From Caldifarciminota bacterium (GTDB taxonomy: Bacteria > Hydrothermota > Hydrothermia > WGAB01): DNA of 52,662 bases. The DNA lies in contig WFXO01000089.1 of NCBI GenBank assembly GCA_015490555.1, positions 1 to 52,662 on the forward strand. Direction: 5' to 3'. The notes beneath the pieces were generated by a model that worked only from the letters and a program-made list of their open reading frames with translations, had not been told where the DNA came from and made no database searches. Below are positions 141-29,862 of this stretch, one piece after another. Every line of letters starts with the position of its first letter. The first letter of the stretch is position 1. The position numbers and the translations under genes are program-made.

Positions 141-1007
141 ATGCGAAAAATCCAGATTGGCCTCTTACAGATCGAAACCCGGCTCGGAGATGTCCAGGGG
201 AACACCGAGAAGATCCTGTCGTTCCTCCACCGTGCCGCGGAGGCTGGGGTTGACCTCGCCGTCACTCCCGAACTCGCCACCCTGGGCTTTGGTTCCGGAG
301 ACATCTATCTCGATAAAGTTGCCGAGAATCTGGAGGCCCTGGACCGGATCCGGGCCGCAACGGAGGACCTCAAACCCTGGGTCATCGTGGGCTTCGTCGA
401 AAAGAACCCACTGGGCTTCTTCCACAACGCGGCTGCACTCATAGGCCAGGGCAAAATTCACGGCATCTACCGAAAAGTCCAGTTGGTCAATTACCGCCTG
501 TTCGACGAGAAACGATACTTCTCCCCCGGCTACCAGTTGCCGGTCTTTGAGACCCCGTTCGCGCGGCTGGGCATCTTGATCTGCGAGGACCTCTGGTTCC
601 CGGAACCTGCGAGAGCCATGACCTTCCGGGGGGCAGAACTACTGGTCGTCCTCTCCGCTTCGCCCTATTCCCTCCATAAAGTCGAGATCTGGGAGGATTA
701 CCTCCGCGTCCGGGTTTACGACAACCTGTTGCCCGTGGTCTTCGTGAACCAGGCCGGGGTCCAGGACGGGGTGACCTACTGGGGCGGGAGCATGGCCTTC
801 TCGGCCCGGGGCGACCTCGTCTATCGGGCACCCCTCCTGGATGAGGATCTGGCGGTCGTGACCCTGGACTTGGAAGAGTCCTCCTTGCTCCGGCGCCGGG
901 ATATCCGTGTCCGGGAAGTCCGACGTGAAATCCTGGAAGACCTGCTCAAGGCCTATGACGACATGAACCGGAGGAACCATGAACCGCATTCATCTGGAAC
1001 TGCCTGA
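141..1007 (+). CDS. Nitrilase-family glutaminase subunit of NAD synthetase
   Basis: Carbon-nitrogen hydrolase of 288 residues, expected to release ammonia from glutamine for the NAD synthetase encoded just downstream. The nitrilase triad is visible: Glu44 in TPELATLG, Lys112 in YRKVQLVNY and Cys148 in ILICEDLWFP. The ATG at 141 is preferred because the longer reading from a TTG at 102 adds 13 residues ahead of the family start (MRKIQIGLLQ). Its 3' end overlaps the next gene by 29 bases, so the two are surely co-translated. In most bacteria this domain is fused to the N-terminus of glutamine-dependent NadE; here it is a separate chain. The glutaminase role is inferred from position and family; another amidase substrate is possible. 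Confidence 0.85.
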   Translation: MRKIQIGLLQIETRLGDVQGNTEKILSFLHRAAEAGVDLAVTPELATLGFGSGDIYLDKVAENLEALDRIRAATEDLKPWVIVGFVEKNPLGFFHNAAALIGQGKIHGIYRKVQLVNYRLFDEKRYFSPGYQLPVFETPFARLGILICEDLWFPEPARAMTFRGAELLVVLSASPYSLHKVEIWEDYLRVRVYDNLLPVVFVNQAGVQDGVTYWGGSMAFSARGDLVYRAPLLDEDLAVVTLDLEESSLLRRRDIRVREVRREILEDLLKAYDDMNRRNHEPHSSGTA

Positions 1008-1833
1008 GGACGAACTGGATCTCATCGCGGAGATCATTGTCCGCTCGATCCGGACCCGTATCGAGAAGGTGGGGGCCCAGGGCGGACTCGTGGCGTTGTC
1101 CGGCGGGATCGACTCCTCCCTGGTCACCCTCCTCTCCAAACGGGCTTTAGGGGATCGGCTCCAGGTCCTGATCATGCCTGAGGAAGGCGTCTCCCCTGAG
1201 TCCGACAAACGCGATGCCCTCCGCCTCGTCAAAGAACACCAGATCCGCTACCGCCTCATCGAGATTAACGACCTGGTGGCCGCCTTCGAACGGTACCTCC
1301 CGGACGGCTCCTTCACGGAATTCCAGAAGAGGTATGCGATGGCGAACGTCAAACCCCGGATCCGAATGATCCTCAATTACCTGTATGCAAACCTCGAAGG
1401 CCTGCTGGTCATCGGCACCTCCAATAAGACTGAGTTGCTCCTGGGCTACGGAACGAAATACGGCGACCTTGGGGCAGATATCTATCCCATCGGTGACCTC
1501 TATAAGACGCAGGTCTGGCAATTGGCCGAACACCTGGGGCTCCCCGCGGACATGGTTCGAAAGAAGCCCTCTGCTGGACTCTGGAAGGGCCAGACCGATG
1601 AGCAGGAACTCGGCCACACGTACGCCGAGATCGACCGGGTGCTCTATTGCCTGGTGGACCTGGAACTCTCGGTCCGAGAAACGGTCCGGATCCTGGGCAT
1701 CTCCGAAGAGGCCGTGCTGGATATCTATCGCCGGGTCTTGAAGAATGAACACAAGCGCCGGCCGCCGACCATTACACGCATTTCCAACATGTGTCTCGAC
1801 AAAGATTGGCGTTACCCGGTAGAGCGATACTAA
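979..1833 (+). CDS. nadE: NAD(+) synthetase, synthetase subunit
   Basis: Adenylates deamido-NAD and amidates it to NAD, the last step of NAD synthesis. The 284-residue protein has the ATP pyrophosphatase P-loop SGGIDSS at residues 41-47, the GTSNKTELLLGY segment and the GDLGADIYPIGDLYKTQV segment typical of NadE. The ATG is preceded by a good ribosome site (cggagg). It lacks its own glutaminase domain but follows a nitrilase-type glutaminase gene with a 29-base overlap, so the pair probably forms a two-subunit glutamine-dependent enzyme. Confidence 0.93.
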   Translation: MNRIHLELPEDELDLIAEIIVRSIRTRIEKVGAQGGLVALSGGIDSSLVTLLSKRALGDRLQVLIMPEEGVSPESDKRDALRLVKEHQIRYRLIEINDLVAAFERYLPDGSFTEFQKRYAMANVKPRIRMILNYLYANLEGLLVIGTSNKTELLLGYGTKYGDLGADIYPIGDLYKTQVWQLAEHLGLPADMVRKKPSAGLWKGQTDEQELGHTYAEIDRVLYCLVDLELSVRETVRILGISEEAVLDIYRRVLKNEHKRRPPTITRISNMCLDKDWRYPVERY

Positions 1834-1864
1834 GACCTGCGGAAGTCACTAAGGGAAGAGTCCT

Positions 1865-2815
1865 TTGAAACTCCGAGACCTTCGTCACACCCCGTTTTTC
1901 CGAATCCTGGGCTTTGTCCTGGTGGCCCTGCTTTTTGGCTATGTCTTCTGGAAGATCCTGGCCAATCTCGACGCCCTCCGGGCTTATCCCTGGCACCTGG
2001 TGCCGGGCTTTCTCGTTCTGGGTGTCCTCGTCCTATCCGCAACCAATTTTACCGCTTCGTTGGTCTGGCTCCGGATCCTTTCTGCGAGCGGTGAGCGGAT
2101 CGCGTGGTCCCGTGCGATCACGGCCTGGATCCTTTCCCGACTGGGCCGATACGTGCCCGGCAAAGTCTGGATGTTTGTCGGTTTGGTCGCTCTGGTCCCG
2201 GAGGCCCGGCGCGGCGTCGTCCTCTCCACCGTGGGCATCCACACGGTGCTGGACCTCCTGGCCGGTGTGACCCTGGCGGTCATGACCTTCCCGGCGCTGG
2301 CCCTGGGCTTCCGGGAAACGGTCCACCTCCCCCCGGGCTGGTTCCTCGGGGGCCTGATCTTCGTGGTCGCCCTTGCCCTCAATCCCCGGTTTATCCAGTG
2401 GCTTTTACGGAAAACCAGTGACCGGGACATCGAGATCGAATGGGGTTACCCTCAACTCGTACTCTGGTTCCTGATGCTGCTGGGTCTGTGGCTCCTCCGA
2501 ATCCTGGGGCACCTGCTCTTCATCCGGGGCTTTGGCATCACCGTAGACTACTTGGCCCTGGCCGCGGCCTTCTCGGCTTCCTGGCTCCTCGGTATGATCT
2601 CTCCCTTTGCCCCCAGTGGGTTAGGGGTCCGGGAAGGCCTTCTGACCTACCTCTTGCAGGGGGTCACGGCGCCGGGCCTGGCCCCGATCATCGCCATCTT
2701 GACCCGCCTGAACTCCACGATCATGGATCTGGTCCTCGGCCTTCCCGCCTGGCTGATGCGGAGTGTCTTGAAGATGCCCTCCAAGGACGAGACTTCCTCG
2801 CAACCGAGTGAGTGA
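1865..2815 (+). CDS. Flippase-like membrane protein (LPG synthase TM domain family)
   Basis: Integral membrane protein of 316 residues with about eight hydrophobic segments. The family hallmarks are visible: an early NFTASLVWLRIL segment, RLGRYVPGKVW near residue 95 and SPFAPSGLGVREGLL near residue 255. These fit the lysylphosphatidylglycerol-synthase transmembrane family (UPF0104), whose members flip or synthesise polar lipids and glycolipids. The start is TTG behind an aagggaagag ribosome site. It lies 31 bases after nadE and may be co-transcribed. There is no soluble synthase domain, so the substrate cannot be told. Confidence 0.75.
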   Translation: MKLRDLRHTPFFRILGFVLVALLFGYVFWKILANLDALRAYPWHLVPGFLVLGVLVLSATNFTASLVWLRILSASGERIAWSRAITAWILSRLGRYVPGKVWMFVGLVALVPEARRGVVLSTVGIHTVLDLLAGVTLAVMTFPALALGFRETVHLPPGWFLGGLIFVVALALNPRFIQWLLRKTSDRDIEIEWGYPQLVLWFLMLLGLWLLRILGHLLFIRGFGITVDYLALAAAFSASWLLGMISPFAPSGLGVREGLLTYLLQGVTAPGLAPIIAILTRLNSTIMDLVLGLPAWLMRSVLKMPSKDETSSQPSE

Positions 2816-15469: not shown

Positions 15470-18223
15470 TCAGAGTCGGAGTGTGAGGACCCAGCCGACC
15501 TCACGGGCCTCTTTTGGCCAGAGGGGCACAGCGACTTCCAAAAGGCCGAACTTCTTCGAGATGCCCAGATCATAGGCCGTTTCTGCGCGGTCTCCGTTCC
15601 AGAGCCATCCCGCTTCAGCATAGGCCCGGACCCAGCGCAAGGGGATCTGGATTTGTCCGAAGATGCGGGCGGTCCCGGCGAGTTCGATGGGTGCGGTCCG
15701 GACCCCGTCCCCCCAGGTCCAGTGTCGGTTGGTCACCGAGAAGTCCCCACGGTGTGGAACGGCAAGATCCCAGGGCCAGGGCAGGAAGATCGGTCCTTTC
15801 AGCCGATACAGGGCTTGGCTCGGGGCGGTGCCCCAGATCTTTCGTGCGTCCAGGAGGACATGAACAGGCCAGCGGGTCGTCCAGGTCGCCTGGATCCGCA
15901 GGCCGAGTTTGGCATAGCCCAAATTCTCGGAGGTGGCACCAATCCCACCGAACCAGGTCACGCTCATGCGGCCGAGACGGGATCGGTGGCGGGTGGTATA
16001 CCGGCCGAACCATTCGCCCCACTGACCGAGGGGATAGAGGGCCGGATCAAACGACAGGGTCGAATCATACACATCCCAAAGGATCAAAGAAAGGGCAAAG
16101 GTTTTCGGTCTTGGGTCATACGGGGTTTTTCGCCAGGTATGAGACCAGAAGAGGTTGAGGCTCCGGGCACCGGCCCACTCGCCGAAGGCGATTCCCCAGG
16201 AGGCCCGCAAGCGATCCAGGGGCTCGGTCCATTTTAGGGCTCCAAGGGGGCGTCTGAGGCCCCAGGCATAGCCCATCAGGGCATCGAGTTTATGTCGGAA
16301 TCCCCCTTCGGAGCCCCCCAGCCGAAGCAGGAATCGGGCACCCTCCTTGGGCCAATAAAGCGGGATCGGAGTGATCGTGAGGGTGTAGACTCCAGGCTCC
16401 GGAAAGGCGATCAAGGGGCGAATGGCGAAGCGGCGCGGGCGCGTGTTGTTCCACTCATCCGGCTCCGGGATCACGTCGTCCGGATCCAGGATCACCTGTT
16501 TGACCTGGGTGATCCCCGGGAAAAGGAGGCGGCGCTTGCCCCGTTCCAACCGCTTGGTCACCGGTCCTTCCGGCGTCACGACCCGAACATCGATGGTCAT
16601 CTCGATATCCCCACGGTTTTCCACCTGGACCCGAACGCCCCGGTCAGTTTTCTCCACCTTGTGGATTGCGTAATCAGCAGTCCAGTCGGTATAGAGCCAC
16701 TGTCGGAAGAACCAATCCAGGTCCTGGCCAGAGACTTGTTCGCAGACTTTCTGAAAATCGCGGATATGGGGGTTCCGAAACCGCCAGGTTCGGTAGTATG
16801 TATGGAAGATGGAATCCAGGGTTTCCTGTCCGACGACCAGGCCCAGCATCTCGATCACCCGTTCCCCCTTGCTGTAAACCAGCGTGCCATAGTTGTTCAT
16901 CTTGTATGCGGGTTGCCCAACGATGGGGGCATGCCACGGGCCATTGAGGGTCCGGTACAGTCCCATCTCCCGGAAGAACTTCAAGGGGGACCGGTCTTTG
17001 GGGAGCCACCAGCGGGTCCATCCGAGGAGTTGCTGAATGGAATCCTTGGGGAATCGCCAATCCATGAACCGGCTCTCTGCATAAGACGCGAAGGCCTCAT
17101 CCAGCCAGGCCTCATCCATCTCGTTGTTGCCGAAGATCCCATAAAACCATTGGTGTCCGACCTCGTGGGCAATGACGTCGATGAGGCCCAGTCGTCGAAT
17201 GGCTTTGGGCATCATGAAGCCCCCTCCGCGTCGCCCGCCGGACCCAATGATAACGAGTTGGGGATATTCCATGCCGCCGCCGGCCCGGCCGATGGACCCA
17301 TCCACAATGGTCAATTTCTTGTAAGGGTAGGGACCAAACCATCGGTTGAACTGCTCCAGGATCTTCGGGATATCCTCGCGGATCTTGAGGTATCTCTGGA
17401 GGTGTCTTGCGCGGACCAGGGTCCAGATTTCGGTTTGGTCCACCGTTTGTTTCAAAGGCACGAAGTCAGGACTGAGCACCACGGCGACATCGTGGACCGA
17501 GTCGGCTACAAAGCGGATGGTGAAGGTCGTGGTATCCGGTTTAGCCTTTCTTCGACTTACCGACAGACTCTCGGGGTCGAACGCCATTAAAGAATCCAGA
17601 AAGGCCTGGTATCCTTTGCCTTCCACCAAAGTGCCGGTGAACCCGGCTACCACGTTTTGGGGGAAGGTGAGGGTCACGTCATAGTGTCCAAAGTTCGCAT
17701 AAAACTCTCCCCACACATGGTAGTCAATGGGATGCCAGCCCAAAGAGTCATAGGCAGCCAGTTTTGGGTACCAGTGAACCAGGTTGACGTAGTTCCCTTG
17801 ATGACCGGTTCGGGACCACAATTTGGGGATTTTGGCTTCAAACCTGAGGGAGAATGTCAAGGTCTCTCCAGGCATCACCGGCTCGGCAAGGGGAAGATGG
17901 AGCGTCGTCCCCAAGGAGTCAAACGACCGTTTTTGGCCCTGGAGTTCCAGTTCGGGGATCCGTAGATCTCCCTGATCTTTGGACTTCAGGTGCTCATAAC
18001 TGCCGAACCACTCCTGGCTCTCCCGAAACAACGCACTGCCATCTTTGAAGGCATTGATGTAGAGGAGAAGCCACAGATCCTGGATCGTATCAGGGGTGAG
18101 GTTGACGAAGGTGATGGTTTCCTGGCCCTGGAGGCTCCAGTTTTGAAAATCCACGGTCGCCTGGATTTGATAATTGGCCTGTGCCTGATATAAGGCGATC
18201 ACACTCAAAAGGATTCCCCACAT
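15470..18223 (-). CDS. Secreted M1-family zinc metallopeptidase
   Basis: Large (917 residues) exported aminopeptidase-like enzyme. A short signal peptide (MWGILLSVIALYQAQA) starts the protein. The zinc motif HEVGH is at 353-357 and the third ligand Glu376 in LDEAFASY follows with exact M1 spacing. GGMEYPQL matches the GAMEN-type substrate loop. The last 300 residues are rich in aromatic beta strands and look like an outer-membrane or surface beta domain. It lies 25 bases downstream of a gene for a PDZ protein that looks like an inactive relative, in the same orientation. Likely role is peptide or protein degradation outside the cytoplasm. Confidence 0.87.
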   Translation of the reverse strand: MWGILLSVIALYQAQANYQIQATVDFQNWSLQGQETITFVNLTPDTIQDLWLLLYINAFKDGSALFRESQEWFGSYEHLKSKDQGDLRIPELELQGQKRSFDSLGTTLHLPLAEPVMPGETLTFSLRFEAKIPKLWSRTGHQGNYVNLVHWYPKLAAYDSLGWHPIDYHVWGEFYANFGHYDVTLTFPQNVVAGFTGTLVEGKGYQAFLDSLMAFDPESLSVSRRKAKPDTTTFTIRFVADSVHDVAVVLSPDFVPLKQTVDQTEIWTLVRARHLQRYLKIREDIPKILEQFNRWFGPYPYKKLTIVDGSIGRAGGGMEYPQLVIIGSGGRRGGGFMMPKAIRRLGLIDVIAHEVGHQWFYGIFGNNEMDEAWLDEAFASYAESRFMDWRFPKDSIQQLLGWTRWWLPKDRSPLKFFREMGLYRTLNGPWHAPIVGQPAYKMNNYGTLVYSKGERVIEMLGLVVGQETLDSIFHTYYRTWRFRNPHIRDFQKVCEQVSGQDLDWFFRQWLYTDWTADYAIHKVEKTDRGVRVQVENRGDIEMTIDVRVVTPEGPVTKRLERGKRRLLFPGITQVKQVILDPDDVIPEPDEWNNTRPRRFAIRPLIAFPEPGVYTLTITPIPLYWPKEGARFLLRLGGSEGGFRHKLDALMGYAWGLRRPLGALKWTEPLDRLRASWGIAFGEWAGARSLNLFWSHTWRKTPYDPRPKTFALSLILWDVYDSTLSFDPALYPLGQWGEWFGRYTTRHRSRLGRMSVTWFGGIGATSENLGYAKLGLRIQATWTTRWPVHVLLDARKIWGTAPSQALYRLKGPIFLPWPWDLAVPHRGDFSVTNRHWTWGDGVRTAPIELAGTARIFGQIQIPLRWVRAYAEAGWLWNGDRAETAYDLGISKKFGLLEVAVPLWPKEAREVGWVLTLRL

Positions 18224-18248
18224 TCCTCAGCCTCCTCACCTTGACATT

Positions 18249-19829
18249 TTAGGGAAAAGTCCACCGTTCGGGGGTGATGGTCAATGTTTGGATTTTCCCG
18301 TTGGGGCGGCGGACTTTCACCGTGAACTGTCCGCCGGGTTCCAAGAAAAGCAACGAGCGATAGGCATCGGCTTTTTGGGTCTCGACCGGATAGCCGTTCA
18401 CAGCCACAAGCACATCTCCGGCTCGTAATCCGGCCTCCCAGACTACAGACCCCGAATCTACGGAGTCGACTTCAAAGTCGCTGTAAAAGAACATCCGTTC
18501 CAGCGGTGGGAAAAAGCCCAGGGGCTTCCATCGTTTCCATCGGCTTAATGTGTGTTCGAAGGGGGTTGCCATGGCTTTTTGAGCCTGGCGAAGGACCACT
18601 GGATCTTGCGTTTTCTTTGCAATCGCAGTGACAAACTCCTCAATGTCCGGGAGTTGGGTGGGGTTCTTTTTGCGCCATTCTCGGATCCCCTGAACCAATG
18701 TCGGCCGTCCGTAAAGGGAGTCGATTTCATACAGGATCCACGCAAAGGTATTCTGGGCGCCGTGATAGATCTTTCGGAACAGAGCCGGGCCTTCCAGGGT
18801 CAAGTAGTCGTAGGGGACAAGCCAGGCAGAATCTCCAAGAACCTGATGGACATAGGGGATGACCCCGATCATAGGGCCGAAGTGGGACCAATCATCGGCG
18901 CCCAGGGTCCACGGTAAATAGCCTTTATCGGGGTCCTTACACAGGGGTTGAAGAGAAAGACGCGCCATTTCATGTGCGTAGCCCAAGATGGGTTTGGAAT
19001 CCTCGGGGTTCAGAAGGAATCTCTTGTCCCGGACTTTATGCCAAAAGGTATTGTAGGCATTGGAATAAAGTGCCCAGCGACGGTGGCTGACCCATGCTTG
19101 ATAGACGTAGGCATACACCGTATCGGGCAAGGAGAGACCCAAGGCCTCATAGGCATCGTAAATCGTTGCGAGGAGTCGAGCCACTTTCCGGGCTTCGCCG
19201 ATCTTCAAGAGATCCGCATCATAAAAAAGGGCAATTGGCCCCTCCACTAAATTCTCCAGGGGTAAGGGATCGTGGGGAATCCACTGGAGGGAATCCACGA
19301 CCATCCGGTTCCCCTCGGCGTGCCAGAGACCGATGGCGGTCGCATCGTCGGTATAAAAGATGCCATCGCGGGCGCGTGCCAGACTGAAACTATAGGCGGA
19401 CGGATGGCCCGGATAGGGAAACAGGGTCGCTGTGGACAGGGCCCGAACGTTCCGGGCGATGTAGACCTCAACCGCTTTCCCTTGGTAGGGAAACTTCGCT
19501 GCGAAGACCCAGTCCTCAGCGACCAACATGGAATCTTGGACCCAAATCGTGTCTCCATGGAATCGAACCGGAAGCCGCTGGAGAAGGGGTTGCCACGGCT
19601 CCACTTCATCCGACACCACATAAATGCCAATCGCCGAATCTGGAACTTCCTCGAGGGATGATAGATCTGCGGAGGAGATCAGCGCGGTCTTTTCTCCAAA
19701 CTGGGTGTACATGTCGTAAAGGTAGTGAACAATGGCCTGAGATTTGGGGGAAGCTATCAGGGTGTAAGCCGACAGCATCCCGGGGAACACCCAACTCACG
19801 AATCCAAGGAAAAATCGAGTGTGACGCAT
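18249..19829 (-). CDS. Exported PDZ protein resembling an inactive gluzincin peptidase
   Basis: Protein of 526 residues with an N-terminal signal segment (MRHTRFFLGFVSWVFPGM). The middle part resembles peptidase-MA/M1-like folds (YDAYEALGLSLPDTV, then GYAHEMARLS), but the zinc motif reads HEMAR at 286-290, so the second histidine is missing. A PDZ domain (VDSGSVVWEAGLRAGDVLVA) forms roughly the last 80 residues. The ATG at 19829 is chosen over an upstream one because it begins the signal peptide. It precedes the active M1 peptidase by 25 bases, so it may be an accessory or substrate-binding partner. The family call is tentative. Confidence 0.65.
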   Translation of the reverse strand: MRHTRFFLGFVSWVFPGMLSAYTLIASPKSQAIVHYLYDMYTQFGEKTALISSADLSSLEEVPDSAIGIYVVSDEVEPWQPLLQRLPVRFHGDTIWVQDSMLVAEDWVFAAKFPYQGKAVEVYIARNVRALSTATLFPYPGHPSAYSFSLARARDGIFYTDDATAIGLWHAEGNRMVVDSLQWIPHDPLPLENLVEGPIALFYDADLLKIGEARKVARLLATIYDAYEALGLSLPDTVYAYVYQAWVSHRRWALYSNAYNTFWHKVRDKRFLLNPEDSKPILGYAHEMARLSLQPLCKDPDKGYLPWTLGADDWSHFGPMIGVIPYVHQVLGDSAWLVPYDYLTLEGPALFRKIYHGAQNTFAWILYEIDSLYGRPTLVQGIREWRKKNPTQLPDIEEFVTAIAKKTQDPVVLRQAQKAMATPFEHTLSRWKRWKPLGFFPPLERMFFYSDFEVDSVDSGSVVWEAGLRAGDVLVAVNGYPVETQKADAYRSLLFLEPGGQFTVKVRRPNGKIQTLTITPERWTFP

Positions 19830-19878
19830 GGGTATTATTTTGCTTGAGAATGGGGGTGGTTGCAAACGGGGAGGGGCC

Positions 19879-22800
19879 TCAGGCCGCCTTTCCCTTTGAA
19901 CCTAATGGGTGGAGGGCCTCGTGGACGATCCGCGCCAGAAGGGTCAACTGAAGGGGCTTCTGGATCCACGGGATTTCCCCTTTGGTCAGGAGTTCCAAAG
20001 CCTGAGGGTCCCGAGGGTAGCCGGTCATAATGATGATCGGCAGGCTGGGATCGCGGGCCTTGAGTTCCTGGATCAAGGCTCGACCATCCATCTCGGGCAT
20101 CAGAAGGTCTGTAATGACAAGTTTGATGTCATCCCGATGGTCCTCATAGATTTGTAAAGCCTCCCTCCCGTTTTTTGCGAGGTGAACTTGATATCCCAGG
20201 TGAGTGAGCATCGACTTGGCAAGGTATCGGACAGCCGCGTCATCCTCGACAACCAGAATCCACTCGCCTTGCCCCTTCGGGAGCGGTGTCCGCTGCTCGA
20301 TTTTCTCAATATCCGCCTTGGTCAAGAGTGCAGGGAAATAGATCGTAAAAGTGGTCCCTTTCCCGACCTCACTCTCGACGAAGATATAGCCATCGTGCTG
20401 TTTGACGATCCCATGAACTTGTGCCAGGCCCAAGCCCGTACCGACGCCCGACTTCTTGGTGGTGAAGAAGGGTTCGAAAATCCTCGGTAGGATCTCTGGG
20501 GGAATCCCGGTCCCGGTATCCGAGAAGGAGATCACAATCCACTTCCCGGGTGGAACTTCGGGATGGGGAGGGGTTTCTTCTTCCGCCACATCTATGCGGG
20601 AGAGGTGAATCCGGATGGTTCCACCATTCGGCATGGCATCCCGGGAGTTCAGGGCGAGGTTTGTCAGGACTTGCTGGAGTTGGGCAGGGTCCCCGTAGAG
20701 CCAGTAGTCCCCAGATTCCCAATCCAGTTCAATTTGGATCGTTTCCGGGAAGGTCCGTTGAAGCCAGCGGACGGACTCTTTCATGAAAGACAAAAGGTCC
20801 AAAGGCTGTTTTTCTGCGACGGATTTCCGGCTGAAGTCCAGGACCTGACGGATCAGGCGGGCGGCCCGTTCGCCTTGCTCTACGACCATCTGCAGGTCAC
20901 GGCGGACATCTTGAGGTAGGTCCTCTCGGAGAGCCAGCAATTCGCCAATTCCAATGACTGTGGTCAAAATGTTGTTGAAGTCGTGGGCAATGCCGGCAGC
21001 CAGTTGCCCAACGGCAGCCAGGCGGTCTTGCTGTCGTGCCCGCTCTTGGATTTCCCGCTCGCGCGTGACGTCTCGAATGAGAAGGACCCACTCTTCTCCG
21101 CGAAGGGAATAAGCGTTGATCTGGAAAATCCGGGGGCTGGGTTTGCGTAAGGTGAGTTCGTGGTAGGGAACTCCAAAGGGTGGAGGTTTTAACAGGATGT
21201 CCAAAGAGACTCCAGCCAGGGTCTCCAGTGGTTTCCCTTTCTCCGCCTTTGGTGCTAAGACCTGCAAGTACTCTTCGGCCAGAGGATTGGCTAAGACAAT
21301 ACGGTGTTCCCGGTCCAAAACCAGGATCCCGGCCCGGACACTGGTGATGATCCGATGGAGACGGCGGGCCTCTTCTTCTGCCCGTTCCATCAGCAAACTT
21401 CGTTGCCAGGCCATCGAAAGGGCCTGGGTGAGTTGGGTCAGGCGTCGGATTTTCGGTACGTGATAGCCTTCTGTGTAGGGCCAACCGAGGAGAAGCATGC
21501 CCAGCCATTCGGTGCCGGCCTGGAGTGGATAGACCGCCGCCGAGTGGACATCGGAAGGGAAAAGGCATTGAAGCGTTTGGGGAACGTTTTGAACATCGGG
21601 GAAGAGCCAAAAACCCGGGCCTGCAGGAGTTCCGAGGGCCTCTACCAGATCAGGCTTGGGAATCGAGCCCTCACAAAGAACTTTCAAGGCAGGATCTGAC
21701 AGATCTACCACCTGGATACGGGTCTCTCCCTTGAACTCCGCGAGGAGCACATGGGAACAGGCACATGTTGCGCGTACGGCATCGGCAATCAACGGAAAAG
21801 CCTCCCGGATCGTGCGAGCGGTGTTGAGATGGGTCAATACACGGGCGAGTCCGGCGGCTTCTTGCTCTAATTCCCATCGTTCGAACGCGCTCCCGATCAT
21901 ATCTGCAGCGGTTTGTAAAGCGTCCTTTTCCACTGGAGACCACGGTTCTTCACGGTGTCGGCCGAAACTGAGGAACCCCCACCAGGCTTGATCTACAAAA
22001 ATCGGGAAGATGAGGAGCCACCGAAGGCGTGTTTGTTGTAGGGCTTTTTTCAAACTCTCAGGGCATTCTTGATAAGACAATAGGAGTGGCTGGCCCGATT
22101 GTAAGGTCTCTCGCCATTCCTCCAATCCATCCTCTTCGTAACAAAGCGGGGAGGGGAATGGTTTTTCCCCCATGGACTGGATCTCTTTGCAAAGCCATTC
22201 GTAGGCTTGCCTGGCACATACTTTGCCATCCGGGGTTCGGAAGTTTTCATAGACACAGAGTCGTTCTACTTCCGCGGCCTGACCCAGATGTTTCAAAAAC
22301 TCTGGGATGCTTTGGTTCACATCCGGTATCCGCAAGAAGGTCTCTGCGCCATATCGCATGGCCTCCAGGATGGTTTCACGACGCAGAAGGGCATGCTCCG
22401 CTTCCTTCTCGCGTGTGACGTCCCGCCCAAAACTAATGGTTCCGACAATCTCCCCTCTGCGATAAAGCGGGGCGGTATGGACGGAGAAGTGGAAGACGCG
22501 GCCGTCAGGGGCAATCACCCGTGTCTCATAAGACTGTGATTTCCCCTCTAAGGTCTCTTGGAAAACCTTCCGAACTTTAGGGAGGTCGTCGGGGTGGATT
22601 AAGGGTTCAAACGACTGACCGATCCATTCCTTTACAGGGTATCCCGTGACCTCTTCGGCACGTTGATTGATGAAGGTGAATTGCCCCTCTCTGTTTAAGG
22701 TCCAGATCATATCGTGGGCCGTATCGACAATGGTGCGGTAAAGTTCCTCCGAATCCCGAAGTTGATCTAAGAGTTTTTGTTTCTCGCGATGCTGCCGGGC

Positions 22801-23820
22801 TTCTTCTTCCACACGGACCTTCAACCTGTAGTTCCGATAAAGCAGGTACGCCCCCAGAAGGAACAGAAAGGCGGTAAAGAAGATCGAGGCCATGACCCGT
22901 CGTAAGTTCTGGCTGGCTATGGCCGAGATGGTAGCCATGGGAATATTGACAACAACACGCCAATCAATGTTCTCCAGAGACACACTGGCATAGGCCGCCA
23001 TCTTCTTCGGTTTATCACGGAGTTGATAGAATACCGTTCCAGCGCTATTTCGGAGCACAGACTCTACATAGTCGAAAGAGACATGACAATCCAAGCAGGT
23101 GGAGTCGCGGTCGTAGATGTTATAGAGTTCCATTTCAGGGTGTTGCGACTGGTATATGAGGGTCCCGTCCTTGGCAATTAACCAGATCCCGAGATCTGTA
23201 GAGGAAACGGTTTTCCCCGCAAACTCGCCTTGAAGTAGGTCATCTAACCCCAGAAGTAATGTGAGGACACCTGCAAAGTTCCCTTGGGAGTCGGCAATTG
23301 GGGTGGCCATTAGAACGTGGAAAGGAATATGCGCCGTATCGGTGGAGTCTTCACGAAATCCCTCTTTGGTCACTGCGGGATTGGGAACAAGGGCTGTGAT
23401 GAACACCTGTCCCCGCTGTGGGTTCTCCTTTGCCCACAAAAAGAAATCACACTGCGCGTACACACGGCCAATCGCAGCCTCTCTTGTGGACGCCACAATT
23501 CGGCCGGTCGTATCGTAAAGTGTAAAGGCCTCAATGCGTGGATCCTCTACCGCGGTAAGCAACTGTTGCAGAAAATCCCGGGGGTGAGCGTACGGCCATC
23601 GGTTCAATTCTGTGGAATTCCCAAGAATTCGTAGAACTTGTGCATAATGGTTGAGATGGGCCTGGAGACGGTTCGCAATCTCCTGAACCAACAAAGACTG
23701 GGTTTGACTATAGCGTTCTACTAAGGCCCGTTCTGAGCGGAAATGTGAATCTAAAGTCAAAATGACAATCAGCAGGAAGAGGAAACTTCCCGAAACCACC
23801 ACTGGCCAGTTTTTCTTCAT
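19879..23820 (-). CDS. Hybrid sensor histidine kinase with a CxxCH-containing periplasmic sensor
   Basis: Membrane hybrid kinase of 1313 residues. Order: TM helix 7-24; periplasmic double-Cache-like sensor about 30-305 containing CLDCH at 242-246, a c-type heme attachment motif; TM helix about 308-328; coiled linker; PAS 355-475; GAF 490-650; second GAF-like 655-810; PAS 815-920; HisKA with phospho-acceptor His946 in [10 protein letters not shown]; HATPase with N-box Asn1058 and glycine boxes DTGTGIP and GVGTGLGL; C-terminal receiver with Asp1238 in [10 protein letters not shown]. There is no DNA-binding output, so it must signal to another protein. It diverges from the ccm operon that would mature such a heme. 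Redox or gas sensing is inferred. Confidence 0.9.
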
Positions 23821-23956
23821 GATGAAGCCCTTACCCGTATCAATGAAAGCCGGAACTTGATCCTATTCCCGTCACAATCATAATCGGAACCCCCTGGATT
23901 CTCAATGAATACAAGCCTTAGGGAAATACTGAAGTATTCGATGGGATTCCTTGAAC

Positions 23957-23985
23957 TTGACAGCACTTCAGGGATTCTTTACTAT
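23957..23985 (+). promoter_or_regulatory. Promoter of the ccm operon
   Basis: TTGACA at 23957-23962 and TACTAT at 23980-23985 are separated by exactly 17 bases. Transcription would start near 23992, giving a leader of about 100 bases before the first ccm gene. It lies in the 269-base gap shared with the divergent histidine kinase. Confidence 0.75.
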
Positions 23986-24089
23986 ATGCGTTAGTAGGGC
24001 ATTGGGCTATACACAAAAGGAGAGAAACTTTAGAATGAGAATCCAACACAGAAAATTCGTACATCACGGCTTTTGGCCGAGGAGGTTTT

Positions 24090-24449
24090 ATGGCACGAAG
24101 TAAAACTTCGCGGAGATCTCCGCAACGATCCTTTGGGGCTTATGCGGTCCTCGGCTTTGTAATTCTTTTATTTGGTGTCCTGGCTTACGGAATCTATTCC
24201 AAAAACCGAGGATCCGCACCTCCCGAGTCCATCCAGTTAACGATCGCTCAGGAACGGATTTATGTCACCGTCGCTCAGGAATATCTGTGCTCATGTGGGG
24301 CCTGTGATCTGGTTCTCAATGATTGTACCTGTCCCACAGCGCTTCAGACCAAGAAGGATCTCCGAAAACGGATCCAAGAAGGGGCCTCGCAAGAAGATTT
24401 AGAATGGTACCTGGAACAGGTCTATAGAGCACGGCGTGTGACATCCTAA
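24090..24449 (+). CDS. CcmH-like membrane-anchored thiol protein, first copy
   Basis: A 119-residue protein with one N-terminal transmembrane helix (about 17-36) and a periplasmic domain with five clustered cysteines (67, 69, 72, 79, 81) in YLCSCGACDLVLNDCTC. The following helical part (KKDLRKRIQEGASQEDLEW) resembles the end of the CcmH redox domain, which keeps apocytochrome cysteines reduced. It is first in the ccm operon behind a strong gaggagg site. Canonical CcmH has a single LRCxxCQN motif, so this is a divergent version; a second one is encoded after ccmF. Confidence 0.72.
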   Translation: MARSKTSRRSPQRSFGAYAVLGFVILLFGVLAYGIYSKNRGSAPPESIQLTIAQERIYVTVAQEYLCSCGACDLVLNDCTCPTALQTKKDLRKRIQEGASQEDLEWYLEQVYRARRVTS

Positions 24450-24462
24450 GGAGGTGAGATCC

Positions 24463-24873
24463 ATGAAAAAGAAAACCCAAATCTGGGTGGGGGCCCTGGT
24501 GATTGTGGCCGCCCTTCTCTTTTTAATGGTGACAAGTTTCACACAGTCTTCCGTCTATTATTACACCCTCGATGAACTGGCAACCCTCGACATTTCTCCT
24601 CAGCAGCGGATCCGTGTGAGTGGACAACTCGTCAAAGAATCCGTGAAATATGACCCTACGAAACCGCTTCTGGAATTTACCATCCAAAATTCCGACAGTA
24701 CTTACCGCTTGAATGTCATTTATCACGATGTCATGCCCGATAACTTTCTCAAGAGTGAAGAAGTCGTAGCCACGGGATATCTCCAGGGTACGCGATTCGA
24801 AGCCGACCAACTCCTGATCAAATGCCCGTCAAAATACGAACCCGAAGAAACGGAAACAGCGGGGGGATCGTAG
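24463..24873 (+). CDS. ccmE: Heme chaperone CcmE, cysteine (CxxxY) type
   Basis: Periplasmic heme chaperone of 136 residues, one N-terminal TM helix (7-25) and an OB-fold domain (RIRVSGQLV, FTIQNSDSTYRLNVIYHDVMPDNF, VVATGYLQG). The heme-attachment site reads KCPSKYEP, with Cys121 and Tyr125, instead of the usual HxxxY histidine. Such CxxxY CcmE proteins are known from Desulfovibrio and archaea. The ATG at 24463 is preferred to a GTG at 24454 that lies within the aaggaggtgag ribosome site. It takes heme from CcmABCD and passes it to CcmF. Confidence 0.92.
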   Translation: MKKKTQIWVGALVIVAALLFLMVTSFTQSSVYYYTLDELATLDISPQQRIRVSGQLVKESVKYDPTKPLLEFTIQNSDSTYRLNVIYHDVMPDNFLKSEEVVATGYLQGTRFEADQLLIKCPSKYEPEETETAGGS

Positions 24874-24874
24874 C

Positions 24875-26866
24875 ATGCCACAACTCGGATCACTTGCAAC
24901 CACCTTAGCATTCCTCACCGCCGTCCTTGCATTCGCCGCTCTGGCATGGGGAGCTTACCGGAAAGATCGGAGTTTGATCCATCTCGGCTACCGGGCTCTG
25001 GACACGGTGTTCTTCTTGGTCCTTTTTGCCTCTGCCCTCCTCCTGTTCCTTTTGGTGAGTCGTGACTTTTCCGTTCGCTACGTCGCTGATTACACCTCCA
25101 GAGACTTGCCGCTTTTATATACCATCTCTGCCTTTTGGGCAGGGCAGGCCGGTTCCCTCCTCTTCTGGGAACTCATCCTCTCGATCTACACCGTCCTCGT
25201 GTTGTGGCTGTATCGTAAACACCCACACCTTCCGGTGATTTCCGCCATCATTGCCGGTGTGCACATCTTTTTCACGCTTCTCCTGACCTTTCTTACGCGG
25301 CCCTTTGATACATTTCCTTTCCCACCCCCCGACGGCGCGGGTCTGAATCCCCTGCTCCAGGATCCGGCAATGGCACTCCATCCGCCAACGTTATACCTGG
25401 GCTATGTCGGTTTCACGATCCCCTTCGCCTTCGCCATGGCTGCCCTGATTCTTCGCAAGGCGGATGCCGAATGGATTCGACGGACTCGAGTTTGGACCAT
25501 TATTTCCTGGCTGTTTCTGACCACAGGGATCGTTTTGGGAGGACAATGGGCGTACATTGAATTGGGCTGGGGGGGCTATTGGGCTTGGGACCCGGTAGAA
25601 AATGCCGCCTTTCTCCCTTGGCTCACGGCCACCGCCTTCCTCCACTCCGTCATGATCCAACAGGCCAAAGGGATGCTTAAGACTTGGAACATCGCTCTCA
25701 TCGCGCTCACCTTCTTCTTCACCATTTTCGGCACCTTCCTCACTCGATCGGGTGTGGTCCAGTCGGTCCATGCCTTCGCGGAATCGAACCTGGGAACCTA
25801 TTTCTTGGTGTTCCTGGGCATCGTGGTGATCTTCTCCGTGTATCTCATCCTCACGCGATCCCATCTGCTCAAGAGTGAGGCCTCTTTTGAGGGCATCCTG
25901 GCGAAAGAGACCAGTTTTTTGGTGAATAACATCCTGTTCCTCGGATTGGCTTTTGCGACCTTCTGGGGGACCATTTTCCCCATCCTTTCTGAAGCCGTAA
26001 CCGGCAATAAGGTGACCGTGGGTCCACCATTCTTTAACCAGGTGAATGCCCCGATCTTCTTAGGGGTGATCATCCTGATGGGCATCTGTCCACTGATTGC
26101 GTGGCGTCGATCTTCACCGGGCAAGTTAGGGAGAAACCTTCTGGTTCCAGGGATTGTCGGGCTCATTTCCTTCGCGGCATTTTTCCTGCAAACCCACCGG
26201 TTTGGCGTGAGTCTGGCATACGCCAGTTCGGTCTTTGTCATTGCGAGCATCCTCTATGACTTTGCCATTGAGGCGAAAGTGCGACGATCGTTTCACCCCG
26301 AAGAACCGGTCCCTCAAGCGATCTGGCACCTAATGCGTGCACGGTCTCGAAAATATGGAGGGTACCTGGTCCATCTGGGCGTTGTCATCATGGCCATCGG
26401 GATCGTCGCCTCCAATGCCTTTAAGCAAGAAACGACGGTAAAACTCGAGCCCGGAGAGCAAGCGGAATTTGCGGGATTTGTCTTGCGATATAAGGGGATC
26501 GAATTTCAACACGAGCCGGGGAAGGTCATCGCTTCCGGCACCTTAGAGGTCCAACCCTCCGACCATGGTTCACCCTCCAGCGTCCCTCTATGGGTCCTCC
26601 GGCCCGCCAAGGTCTTTTATCGTACGGCCGATCAACCACATACCGAAGTGGACATCCGTCGGATCGGCGTGGATGACCTCTACACCATCCTCGCTGGTTA
26701 CCAGACGGGCTCTGACAAAGAAAACTTTGCCACGTTCAAGTTTCTCTACATGCCCGGGGTCAACCTCATCTGGTGGGGATTCTATGTCATCATAATCGGT
26801 GGACTGTTTGCTTTATTCGGGAAAGGGAAACCAAGGAAACGGAAGACACGGAGGGCAACCTCATGA
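24875..26866 (+). CDS. ccmF: Cytochrome c heme lyase subunit CcmF
   Basis: Large polytopic membrane protein of 663 residues. The heme-handling WWD motif WGGYWAWDPVENAAFLPW lies around residues 232-249, FGTFLTRSGVVQSVHAFA near 290-307 and SKYGGYLVHLGVVIM near 490-505, all typical of CcmF. It attaches heme from CcmE to CxxCH apocytochromes. It starts one base after ccmE ends and its stop overlaps the next ATG (ATGA), so the operon is tightly coupled. Confidence 0.96.
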   Translation: MPQLGSLATTLAFLTAVLAFAALAWGAYRKDRSLIHLGYRALDTVFFLVLFASALLLFLLVSRDFSVRYVADYTSRDLPLLYTISAFWAGQAGSLLFWELILSIYTVLVLWLYRKHPHLPVISAIIAGVHIFFTLLLTFLTRPFDTFPFPPPDGAGLNPLLQDPAMALHPPTLYLGYVGFTIPFAFAMAALILRKADAEWIRRTRVWTIISWLFLTTGIVLGGQWAYIELGWGGYWAWDPVENAAFLPWLTATAFLHSVMIQQAKGMLKTWNIALIALTFFFTIFGTFLTRSGVVQSVHAFAESNLGTYFLVFLGIVVIFSVYLILTRSHLLKSEASFEGILAKETSFLVNNILFLGLAFATFWGTIFPILSEAVTGNKVTVGPPFFNQVNAPIFLGVIILMGICPLIAWRRSSPGKLGRNLLVPGIVGLISFAAFFLQTHRFGVSLAYASSVFVIASILYDFAIEAKVRRSFHPEEPVPQAIWHLMRARSRKYGGYLVHLGVVIMAIGIVASNAFKQETTVKLEPGEQAEFAGFVLRYKGIEFQHEPGKVIASGTLEVQPSDHGSPSSVPLWVLRPAKVFYRTADQPHTEVDIRRIGVDDLYTILAGYQTGSDKENFATFKFLYMPGVNLIWWGFYVIIIGGLFALFGKGKPRKRKTRRATS

Positions 26867-27309
26867 AACGCTTTCTGACAAGCAGCCTCTTCCTCTTTGT
26901 CTGGACGACAGTGCTGGCGGGTGCAGCGACCTTGTCGGACATTGAAAAACAATTGATGTGCATGTGTGGGTGTGGCATGGTCCTCTCCTCCTGTCAATGC
27001 GGGACTGCCGAGGAATTCCGGACCGAGATCCTCACAAAACTCGAGCAGGGCGTCCCTCCAGACCAGATTATCCAAGATTTTGTCGCGCGGTATGGCGAAA
27101 CGGTCTTGGCCGCCCCTACCAAGTCCGGGTTCAACCTCACGGCCTGGATCACTCCTTTTGTCGCTCTCATCCTTGGACTCTCGGCCCTCTTCTGGGTTGT
27201 CCGCACCCTGGCACATCGGTACCGACTCCAAACCGTCTCACCGCCCCCCGGCGCTCAGCACCCCGGCTTTCGGAAACAGGTCGATGAACGCCTTAAAGAC
27301 TACCTTTAA
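26863..27309 (+). CDS. CcmH-like protein, second copy
   Basis: A 148-residue protein with signal peptide (MKRFLTSSLFLFVWTTVLAG), a periplasmic thiol domain with cysteines 33, 35, 37, 44 and 46 (LMCMCGCGMVLSSCQC), the helical segment RTEILTKLEQGVPPDQIIQDF, and a TM helix about 90-110. It is CcmH/CycL-like, with the order and C-terminal anchor of the classical protein. The ATG overlaps the ccmF stop by 4 bases; an upstream in-frame start inside ccmF is rejected. Together with the first copy it makes a pair of multi-cysteine CcmH-type proteins. Confidence 0.83.
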   Translation: MKRFLTSSLFLFVWTTVLAGAATLSDIEKQLMCMCGCGMVLSSCQCGTAEEFRTEILTKLEQGVPPDQIIQDFVARYGETVLAAPTKSGFNLTAWITPFVALILGLSALFWVVRTLAHRYRLQTVSPPPGAQHPGFRKQVDERLKDYL

Positions 27310-27321
27310 AGGGAGGCTTGT

Positions 27322-27639
27322 ATGGTTACCTGGATTGGAACCCTTCTGATCCTTGGGGTTGCAGCCTATCTCTTTGTTCCCTATATCCTGGGATGGGACC
27401 GACAGGCAGGGAAAAAATCCACCAAGGAATCTGAAGACCCCCGGGAAGTCCTGTTGAGCAACCTGGCAGACTTGGTGTACGATTACAAATCTGGGAAAAT
27501 CAGCGAAGAGGACTATCAACGCCTCCGTGCAGAACTGGAGGCTCAACTCTACGCTTTAGAACACCCGGAGTCGGAGGCACCCAAGGATGACCGACGCACC
27601 ACCACGGCTGGAGATTCGGAACCTGACCAAGAGGATTAG
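27322..27639 (+). CDS. Short CcmI-like membrane protein
   Basis: A 105-residue protein with one N-terminal TM helix (4-22) and a charged helical region, LVYDYKSGKISEEDYQRLRAEL, like the N-terminal part of CcmI, which presents apocytochrome to the ligation complex. The TPR domain of full CcmI is absent. A good agggagg site precedes the ATG and its end overlaps ccmA by 53 bases. The CcmI identity rests on position and the short motif. Confidence 0.7.
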   Translation: MVTWIGTLLILGVAAYLFVPYILGWDRQAGKKSTKESEDPREVLLSNLADLVYDYKSGKISEEDYQRLRAELEAQLYALEHPESEAPKDDRRTTTAGDSEPDQED

Positions 27640-28315
27640 CGGCAGGAAAATCCTCAAAGGCTTTACATTTTCTTTTGTTGCAGGGACCCGATACCTCCTG
27701 ACCGGTCCCAACGGCTCCGGGAAAACTACCCTCTTAAAACTCCTGGCCGGCCTCATGCGGCCTTCGGACGGAGAGATCCTGTATCAGGACCGCCCACTGG
27801 AGGACTGGGGCAGTGCCTACGGCAAAATGGTCTCTCTCTTAAGCCACGAACTCTACATGTACGAAGACCTCACCGGCCTGGAGAACCTGGAGTTCTTTGC
27901 GCGACTCCACGGCCTCCCGCACCCCAGGAACCGGGCCCTTGAACTGTTAGAACGGGTGGGGCTTAAATTCTTTGCCCATGAACCCGTGAAGTCTTACTCC
28001 CAAGGGATGAAACAACGGCTGGCCGTCGCAAAGGCCATCCTCCACCGACCGAAGATCCTCCTCTTCGACGAGCCGTTCTCCGGCTTAGACCTCCGTGGGA
28101 CCGAACTCCTCCAGGAGACCCTCCAAGAAATCCTACCCCAAGAGGACGGGATCTTCATCCTCGCCACACACAACCCCGATCTCGGATGGCAACTTGCCGA
28201 CCAGTATCTCTACCTGGAACGCGGCTCCCTCCAGGCCTCCGGGGACCGAACCCACTTCATTGAAGCCAAAATTGTGGACCGGCTCCGCCAAAAAATCGAC
28301 GTCGGAGTCTTCTGA
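27587..28315 (+). CDS. ccmA: Heme exporter ATP-binding protein CcmA
   Basis: ABC ATPase of 242 residues: Walker A GPNGSGKTTLLK near 42-53, signature YSQGMKQRL near 138-146, Walker B ILLFDEPFSGLD near 158-169 and the switch His in ATHNPD. With CcmB, C and D it releases heme-loaded CcmE. It begins inside the CcmI-like gene (53-base overlap) and its stop shares a base with the ccmB ATG. Confidence 0.95.
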   Translation: MTDAPPRLEIRNLTKRISGRKILKGFTFSFVAGTRYLLTGPNGSGKTTLLKLLAGLMRPSDGEILYQDRPLEDWGSAYGKMVSLLSHELYMYEDLTGLENLEFFARLHGLPHPRNRALELLERVGLKFFAHEPVKSYSQGMKQRLAVAKAILHRPKILLFDEPFSGLDLRGTELLQETLQEILPQEDGIFILATHNPDLGWQLADQYLYLERGSLQASGDRTHFIEAKIVDRLRQKIDVGVF

Positions 28316-28992
28316 TGTCCTTCTTGCGCGGCATCTGGGAAATCTTTCGGAAGGATTTTCTCTTTGAACTCGAGACCGGAGAAACGCTCAGCCTCCTGTT
28401 GGTCTTTGCTCTTTCGGTCCTCTTTCTGTTTAACTTCTCCTTTGATCTCTCTCGAGCGGAAGTTCAGAAGTTCTTCCCCGGCTTCTTCTGGCTCACCGTC
28501 CTGTTCACCAGTGTCCTGGGCTTTTCCAAAGCCATCGAGATCGAACGGCGTGGCCATGCCATCCAGGGAATCCTTATGACCCCGATCCCCCGCGAATCGA
28601 TTTACCTCGGAAAGGTTTTCAGTTCCTTTGTCTTTTTGCTCCTGGTGGAACTCATCCTGGCCCCTCTCTTTGTGGTTTTCTTCGGCCTCAAAATGACAGG
28701 AGCCCAGTTTCTACAACTGCTGTTCCCCCTGATCCTGGGAACCTTAGGGCTGGCAGCGATCGGCACCTTCATGGCATTGATCTGCCAAGTCTCCCCGAAA
28801 GGATGGCTCCTCTTCTCTCTGGGATACTTTCCTCTGGCCGTCCCCACACTCATCGCCAGCACAAAATTGTTTCAAGGGATCTTTCAAGCAGTTGGGGGGC
28901 CTGCCGCTCCCTGGCTCCGGTTTTTGGGGGTCATTGACACCGTTGAACTGGTAGTCGCCGTGTTGTTGTTCGAGTACCTCATGGAAGAGTAA
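28315..28992 (+). CDS. ccmB: Heme exporter permease CcmB
   Basis: A 225-residue membrane protein with six hydrophobic segments. The N-terminus RKDFLFELETGETLSLLLVFALSV, split here as RKDFLFELE and LLLVFALSV, and the motif ERRGHAIQGILMTPIPRESIY around 78-98 (key residues GILMTP) are family hallmarks. It is the permease partner of CcmA in the CcmABCD complex. Its ATG overlaps the ccmA stop codon. Confidence 0.93.
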   Translation: MSFLRGIWEIFRKDFLFELETGETLSLLLVFALSVLFLFNFSFDLSRAEVQKFFPGFFWLTVLFTSVLGFSKAIEIERRGHAIQGILMTPIPRESIYLGKVFSSFVFLLLVELILAPLFVVFFGLKMTGAQFLQLLFPLILGTLGLAAIGTFMALICQVSPKGWLLFSLGYFPLAVPTLIASTKLFQGIFQAVGGPAAPWLRFLGVIDTVELVVAVLLFEYLMEE

Positions 28993-29014: not shown

Positions 29015-29719
29015 ATGAAAGAGAACAAACCACTCAACATTAGCACCACTCGAAAAGTCCTATGGGGGCTGGGATTTGCGCTCCTGTTGGTGAGTCTATA
29101 CATGGCGCTCCTCTTCGCCCCTCGGGAACGGACTATGGGGGATGTTCAGCGCATCTTTTATTTCCATATGCCCCTGGCCTGGAACGGCTTCTTGGCATTC
29201 TTTATTACGTTCTTGTATGGGATCCGCTATCTCATCCGGAGAGACCTCCAGGACGATCAGATTGCTGCGTCCTCGGCCGAAGTAGGCCTCTTTTTCATCA
29301 CCCTGGCGTTGATCACGGGCTCTTTGTGGGCTCGGCCTGCTTGGGGCACCTTCTGGGTCTGGGAACCACGATTGACGACTGCGTTTATCCTCTGGCTCAT
29401 GTACGTGTTCTACCTCTTTCTGCGACGCAGCATCGAGGATCGGGATCGAGTCCGGCTTGTCACGTCGGTCTATGGGATCATCGCCTTCGTTAATGTCCCC
29501 CTGGTCTTTATGTCGATCCGATGGTGGCGGACCCAGCATCCGGTTCTCATCAAAATGGGGAAGATCGATATGGCCCCGCAAATGGTCCAAACCCTCATGG
29601 TTTCGCTGGTGACCTTTACCATCCTTTACGTCCTTCTGTTGGTTGAACGGCGGGCAGTAGAACGCTTAGAAGATCGCGTCCGCCAAATGAAAGAACAAAT
29701 CCGGGAGGTTTGGCAATGA
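29015..29719 (+). CDS. ccmC: Heme exporter protein CcmC
   Basis: Membrane protein of 234 residues with six TM helices. The heme-binding tryptophan motif reads WGTFWVWEPRLTTAFILW around 110-127, with WEPR where most CcmC have WDAR, and the flanking histidines (FYFHMPLAWNG and SIRWWRTQHP) are present. It transfers heme to CcmE. A ggagcagagc site precedes the ATG; the stop overlaps the ccmD ATG. Confidence 0.95.
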   Translation: MKENKPLNISTTRKVLWGLGFALLLVSLYMALLFAPRERTMGDVQRIFYFHMPLAWNGFLAFFITFLYGIRYLIRRDLQDDQIAASSAEVGLFFITLALITGSLWARPAWGTFWVWEPRLTTAFILWLMYVFYLFLRRSIEDRDRVRLVTSVYGIIAFVNVPLVFMSIRWWRTQHPVLIKMGKIDMAPQMVQTLMVSLVTFTILYVLLLVERRAVERLEDRVRQMKEQIREVWQ

Positions 29720-29862
29720 CCTATCTCTTTTTGGCATTTCTCGTGATCTGGATCGGGTTCTTTCTCTACAATGCCTACCTTCTTCGTCGATTGAGCCAGT
29801 TAGAGCGACAAATGGAAGCCTTTGAGGCCTACCTGAAATCTAAAGAACAGTCGGGAACCTGA
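29716..29862 (+). CDS. ccmD: Small membrane protein CcmD
   Basis: A 48-residue protein: one TM helix (LFLAFLVIWIGFFLYNAYLL) followed by a short charged helix (RRLSQLERQMEAFEAYLKSK). Size, topology and position directly after ccmC, with an ATGA overlap, identify it as CcmD, which holds CcmE in the CcmABC complex. Confidence 0.88.
   Translation: MTYLFLAFLVIWIGFFLYNAYLLRRLSQLERQMEAFEAYLKSKEQSGT

Follow-up and report, generated by a model that had tools for sequence, protein, structure and literature searches.

A hybrid sensor kinase with a conserved c-type heme motif in its double Cache sensor, encoded divergently from a ccm operon

Results

A hybrid kinase beside cytochrome c maturation genes

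The window (i.e., the whole stretch of 52,662 nucleotides that we analysed) contains a hybrid sensor histidine kinase gene and, divergent from it, an operon for cytochrome c maturation (Table 1). The domain order of the kinase is TM - dCache_1 with CxxCH - TM - PAS - GAF - PAS-like - HisKA (H946) - HATPase_c - receiver (D1238). Its dCache_1 match (PF02743; residues 31-240) scored 65.5 bits, above the curated Pfam cutoff of 45, and is the only one in the host genome; the other Pfam domains were PAS (residues 359-468), GAF (507-645), HisKA (937-999), HATPase_c (1043-1164) and receiver (1188-1297). All features that define a hybrid histidine kinase (i.e., HisKA with its histidine, HATPase_c, and a receiver with the phosphoacceptor aspartate) were thus found in one protein. 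The N-terminus is Lys-rich (MKKNW) and an Arg/Lys stretch follows the second predicted helix (YRNYRLKVR), so that by the positive-inside rule the loop carrying CLDCH is predicted to face the periplasm. A first-pass annotation of the window had described a hybrid kinase with a Cache-like sensor, a CLDCH motif at residues 242-246 in its extracytoplasmic part, and a 269-base gap shared with divergent ccm genes. These descriptions are borne out by the Pfam matches, by the hydropathy helices on either side of the motif together with the positive-inside rule, and by the exact coordinates of the gap. A single-sequence AlphaFold2 prediction had a pLDDT of 36.5, too low to inform on the fold.

Table 1 Features of the kinase locus and of related loci.
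Feature	Position	Strand	Remark
PDZ-domain protein	18249..19865	-	13 bases downstream of kinase, same strand
Hybrid sensor histidine kinase, 1313 aa	19879..23820	-	Uninterrupted ORF
C-terminal receiver, Asp1238	19930..20259	-	Pfam; residue present
HisKA, H-box IAHDFNN, His946	20824..21012	-	Pfam; residue present
Second transmembrane helix, ~residues 306-329	22834..22905	-	Hydropathy
Membrane-proximal Cache module with motif, ~residues 172-300	22921..23307	-	Profile matches: relatives, and solved dCache sensors (proximal modules)
CLDCH, residues 242-246, c-type heme attachment motif	23083..23097	-	Between two predicted membrane helices; same column as CxxCH in L027, L028, L092, L093
M230, candidate sixth (distal) heme ligand	23131..23133	-	Aligned Met; putative ligand role
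First transmembrane helix, ~residues 3-27	23740..23814	-	Hydropathy
Divergent gap, 269 bases	23821-24089	.	Between kinase and first ccm gene
CcmH-like, CSCGAC/CTC, first ccm gene	24090..24449	+	Weak PF03918 match, well below cutoff
CcmE	24454..24873	+	Pfam
CcmF	24875..26866	+	Pfam
CcmH	26773..27309	+	Pfam; true start probably later than listed GTG
Short CcmI-like membrane protein	27322..27639	+	Assigned by appearance only
CcmA (ABC ATPase)	27587..28315	+	ABC_tran match and operon position
CcmB	28315..28992	+	Pfam
CcmC	29015..29719	+	Cytochrom_C_asm match and operon position
CcmD-like short membrane protein	29716..29862	+	Assigned by appearance only
Related heme-c dCache kinases, three sulfate reducers	L090:9067-12776, L094:581-4289, L095:4821-8518		Directly downstream of qmoABC, before sigma-54 response regulator

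The operon brings together CcmA, B, C, E, F and H of System I cytochrome c maturation. Its first gene encodes an unusual small CcmH-like protein, and a second, ordinary CcmH lies in the same operon. The divergent gap holds sigma-70-like sites (consensus matches only) toward ccm (TTGACA-17-TACTAT, 23957-23985) and toward the kinase (TTGAGA-17-TATGAT, 23905-23877), an arrangement that fits two independent promoters. A palindrome in the gap (AATACT-GA-AGTATT, 6-2-6, at 23925) was set aside, as by rough estimate ~0.6 such repeats are expected by chance per 269 bases. Downstream of the kinase come genes for the PDZ protein, an M1 peptidase and methionyl-tRNA synthetase; none of the three is a signalling partner, and the kinase has no adjacent gene for an output regulator. 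The PDZ and M1 peptidase genes (15470-19865) follow the kinase closely, one after the other, and may be co-transcribed with it. Neither an Rfam nor a tRNA scan of the window gave a match.

We found 310 CxxCH-coding sites in the host genome, compared with 93 for a reversed-pattern control, and two multiheme cytochrome gene clusters (L097, C17:43000-58000; L098, C9:18000-25500) with open reading frames carrying up to 14 and 18 CxxCH motifs, respectively. This excess and the dense clusters indicate that c-heme attachment is in heavy use, and an extensive electron-transfer chain, periplasmic or extracellular, is probable in the host. With so many multiheme cytochromes, the Ccm system has many other clients and does not exist mainly for the window sensor.

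The CxxCH motif occupies a conserved position in the proximal Cache module

A scan with the whole kinase returned only kinase-domain relatives, in Chloroflexi, Desulfobacteraceae, Spirochaetes and Paenibacillus, and the organisms matched served as centres for searches with the 285-residue sensor. Among 395 genomes of the phylum of the Desulfobacteraceae centre, the sensor found two clear relatives, L027 (5.6e-14) and L028 (2.2e-9), both matched over the membrane-proximal module. A profile built from these two and the window sensor then gave two further relatives from outside its training set, L092 (1.0e-53) and L093 (5.7e-51). As the latter are orthologues of L027 (70-73% identity), the five CxxCH sequences represent three lineages, the window's own and two others. 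Elsewhere, 147 genomes of the host's own phylum, searched with both the single sequence and the profile, yielded only dCache modules without CxxCH and no close relative, and 201 genomes of the phylum of the Chloroflexi centre yielded no relative at E<=1e-12 (a weak negative, the search having run without a positive control). An exact-peptide scan of genome contigs with the sensor found no relative, a profile search of viral contigs gave no match, and tblastn against plasmids gave none to the full sensor and two weak matches with the L027 module.

All four relatives, each 25-30% identical to the window sensor, carry CxxCH in the identical aligned column; conservation among homologues had been one of the checks proposed in the first-pass annotation, and it came out in favour of the motif. 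The immediate contexts are CLDCHVSFD (window), CFKCHKSFE (L027), CYSCHESFD (L028), CFKCHKNFE (L092) and CFKCHKDFE (L093), and the wider context common to the five modules reads W(L/I)I..(D/E)G.LI...M...NI(Y/F)..CxxCHxxF, while the distal halves of these sensors show no conservation. We aligned 108 distinct proximal modules, i.e., these five and a control set of 103 ordinary dCache_1 modules without CxxCH, so that the motif occurs in 0/103 of the others. With the five-sequence profile the CxxCH modules, all of them its members, scored 174-227 bits; the best module without CxxCH reached 62 bits with the earlier three-sequence profile. When the window protein's own residues were shuffled, CxxCH fell between the helices in 0.015% of 20,000 shuffles (a probability of 0.00015), and conservation among the relatives is the stronger evidence that the motif is real. 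The conserved position points to an undescribed family of heme-based sensors, as far as can be judged from sequence.

The relatives differ in how they match Pfam and in what they are joined to. L028 scored 70.1 bits against dCache_1 (over 3-239/240), and L027, L094 and L095 matched it on the proximal half only, below the cutoff. L028 itself (988-2403, minus strand; L091:4170-5585) is a 472-residue membrane sensor with a heme-c dCache module and a PAS domain and without a kinase or other output domain, so that a kinase does not invariably accompany the heme-c module.

A methionine accompanies the motif

A methionine stands 12 residues ahead of the motif in 5/5 CxxCH modules, compared with 10/103 modules without CxxCH (Fisher p = 3e-5; 0.0015 with the three orthologues counted once), where Phe and Ile prevail at this column. 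The only invariant histidine in the alignment is the motif's own. Given that there is no further invariant histidine and that the methionine is fixed, Met230 is the leading candidate for the other axial ligand and probably serves as such.

Relatives lie beside sulfate-reduction genes

The gene order in L090 and L094 is sat - DUF6955 - aprB - aprA - qmoABC - kinase - sigma-54 response regulator. The contig of L095 starts only at the qmo genes, and from that point its order agrees with theirs. In L090, sat, aprB, aprA and qmoC passed NCBIfam cutoffs, and qmoA and qmoB were assigned by HdrA-type matches and position. Further downstream, L090 and L095 both carry an NrfD/FeS/triheme-c7 set and a multiheme NapC-like gene; the L094 contig ends beyond the regulator. 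The surroundings of L028 (L091) consist of unrelated genes. By family matches and inspection of open reading frames, we recognised no ccm gene in L090 (18.5 kb), L091 (11.4 kb), L094 or L095 (16 kb each). The first-pass annotation had proposed that the kinase could report heme-maturation or redox state and control ccm through a partner, and that homologues be checked for adjacency to ccm. What stands is the divergent gap beside the operon in this genome; a general link is not supported, as the 11-18 kb read around the four relatives show no recognisable ccm, the neighbours being either qmoABC and a sigma-54 regulator or unrelated genes.

Discussion

A heme-c motif in a double Cache sensor

By Pfam the sensor resembles dCache_1 sensors (e.g., PctA, the kinase sensors 3LIB/3LI8, and 6MNI) across most of its length, its proximal module matches solved dCache structures, and among solved structures the profile picked out chiefly proximal modules from dCache chemoreceptors and kinases rather than heme sensors. 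To our knowledge, known dCache_1 members bind small ligands without a covalent cofactor; the window module differs from them in its CxxCH, which is absent from 103/103 sampled proximal modules. A c-type heme in a periplasmic signalling domain, as predicted here, is known from DcrA of Desulfovibrio, which is a chemoreceptor. We found no description of heme in a dCache domain in the open-access literature.

A close analogy is sCache_heme (DUF3365/Tll0287-like, PF11845; e.g., Tll0287, Geobacter GSU0582 and GSU0935), likewise an extracytoplasmic Cache-superfamily domain with one CxxCH. A 2026 preprint presents sCache_heme as the first Cache domain known to hold a covalent cofactor, made by insertion of a cytochrome fragment between beta3 and beta4, where its CxxCH sits, and found in kinases, chemoreceptors and other outputs (PMC12889525). 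The first-pass annotation had likened the window sensor to heme-c PAS/Cache sensors of Geobacter type; membership of that family is not supported. No PF11845 match was listed for P0001 (E<=0.01) or for L027 and L028 (E<=1), and none was found for the window sensor or the L094 and L095 kinases at E<=10 (a range in which HMMER filters drop most matches above ~0.1). Moreover, sCache_heme is a single Cache, whereas the window sensor is a double Cache by Pfam, and its motif precedes two strands, GxxYY and KxxYYA, and so lies earlier in the module than that of sCache_heme, reading as between beta2 and beta3 (strand numbers being taken from sequence, not structure). The segment measures 58-60 residues in CxxCH modules, compared with 50-72 (median 66) in modules without heme. 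Given the other position and the lack of added length, the motif seems to have arisen within an existing loop, elsewhere than in sCache_heme. We thus consider it likely that these sensors form a separate dCache_heme lineage, i.e., a second origin of heme-c sensing in the Cache superfamily, by substitution in the proximal module and not by insertion of a cytochrome fragment.

What the sensor may report

The best-supported reading is that a heme covalently bound to the proximal Cache module would, through its redox state or a gas ligand, change the module and with it the kinase. Specifically, one c-type heme would be attached at C242/C245 of the periplasm-facing module, near the second helix, with H246 as one axial ligand and M230 probably the other. 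A change in heme redox state, or NO displacing the methionine, would alter the Cache module, and the second membrane helix would relay this to the kinase. In three relatives, the sigma-54 response regulator encoded next door would probably serve as the output, whereas the window kinase, with no such neighbour, may pass phosphate to its own receiver and on to a further partner. The job of the system would most likely be to adjust respiratory or cytochrome-related genes according to the state of electron transfer in the periplasm. We regard this account as a whole, of a membrane hybrid kinase acting as a periplasmic redox (or NO) sensor for such genes, as reasonably probable.

The heme-c module could instead detect nitric oxide, the kinase answering nitrosative stress. 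The sole signalling-fused heme-c Cache that was characterised biochemically in the preprint is reported to bind NO tightly without a stable O2 complex and to behave as an NO sensor (PMC12889525). That precedent, however, belongs to a different family with a different motif position; the fixed methionine suggests a six-coordinate His/Met heme, more like that of a redox cytochrome; and the relatives adjoin sulfate-reduction electron-transfer genes. Because of this methionine and these neighbourhoods we favour redox sensing and consider a dedicated NO sensor unlikely, though it is the main rival.

Rather less likely is a switch without heme, in which the cysteine pair would act as a redox-active disulfide or, together with H246, as a metal site. 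CxxC pairs do occur in extracytoplasmic redox switches, and heme attachment in the window sensor is something that we infer. Yet the histidine is as fixed as both cysteines in 5/5 sequences, the residues are spaced exactly as in the cytochrome-c attachment signature, and the host has a large c-type cytochrome maturation system.

Proximity to ccm suggests another possibility, namely that the kinase reports its own heme attachment, and with it the status of the Ccm system, and exerts feedback on ccm by way of the divergent promoter. The gap with promoter-like sites both ways and the fact that the sensor is itself a predicted Ccm client are in keeping with such feedback. Against this, ccm lies near 0/4 relatives in the stretches read, the host genome encodes many other Ccm clients, no output regulator is adjacent, and the promoter-like sites are no more than consensus matches. 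That the window kinase controls ccm is possible from adjacency across one divergent gap in one genome; feedback of this kind appears very unlikely, and we find it decidedly doubtful that a second-origin dCache heme-c domain goes together with a kinase that senses whether its heme is attached, or its own redox state, and regulates the divergent ccm genes accordingly. Finally, although the distal module largely resembles an ordinary dCache_1, a chance motif in an ordinary ligand-binding sensor is extremely improbable given the shuffle test, and conservation in one column across such distant relatives largely refutes a chance origin.

Kinase-regulator pairs as in L027, L092 and L093 are likewise known from NtrB/AtoS-type kinases with sigma-54 response regulators; unlike these, the window kinase, as a hybrid, carries its own C-terminal receiver and lacks a regulator next to it. 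A limited literature search found no description of a kinase/sigma-54 regulator circuit adjacent to qmoABC, and the pair is a possible undescribed regulator of sulfate respiration. If real, it would constitute a testable redox-control circuit for this process.
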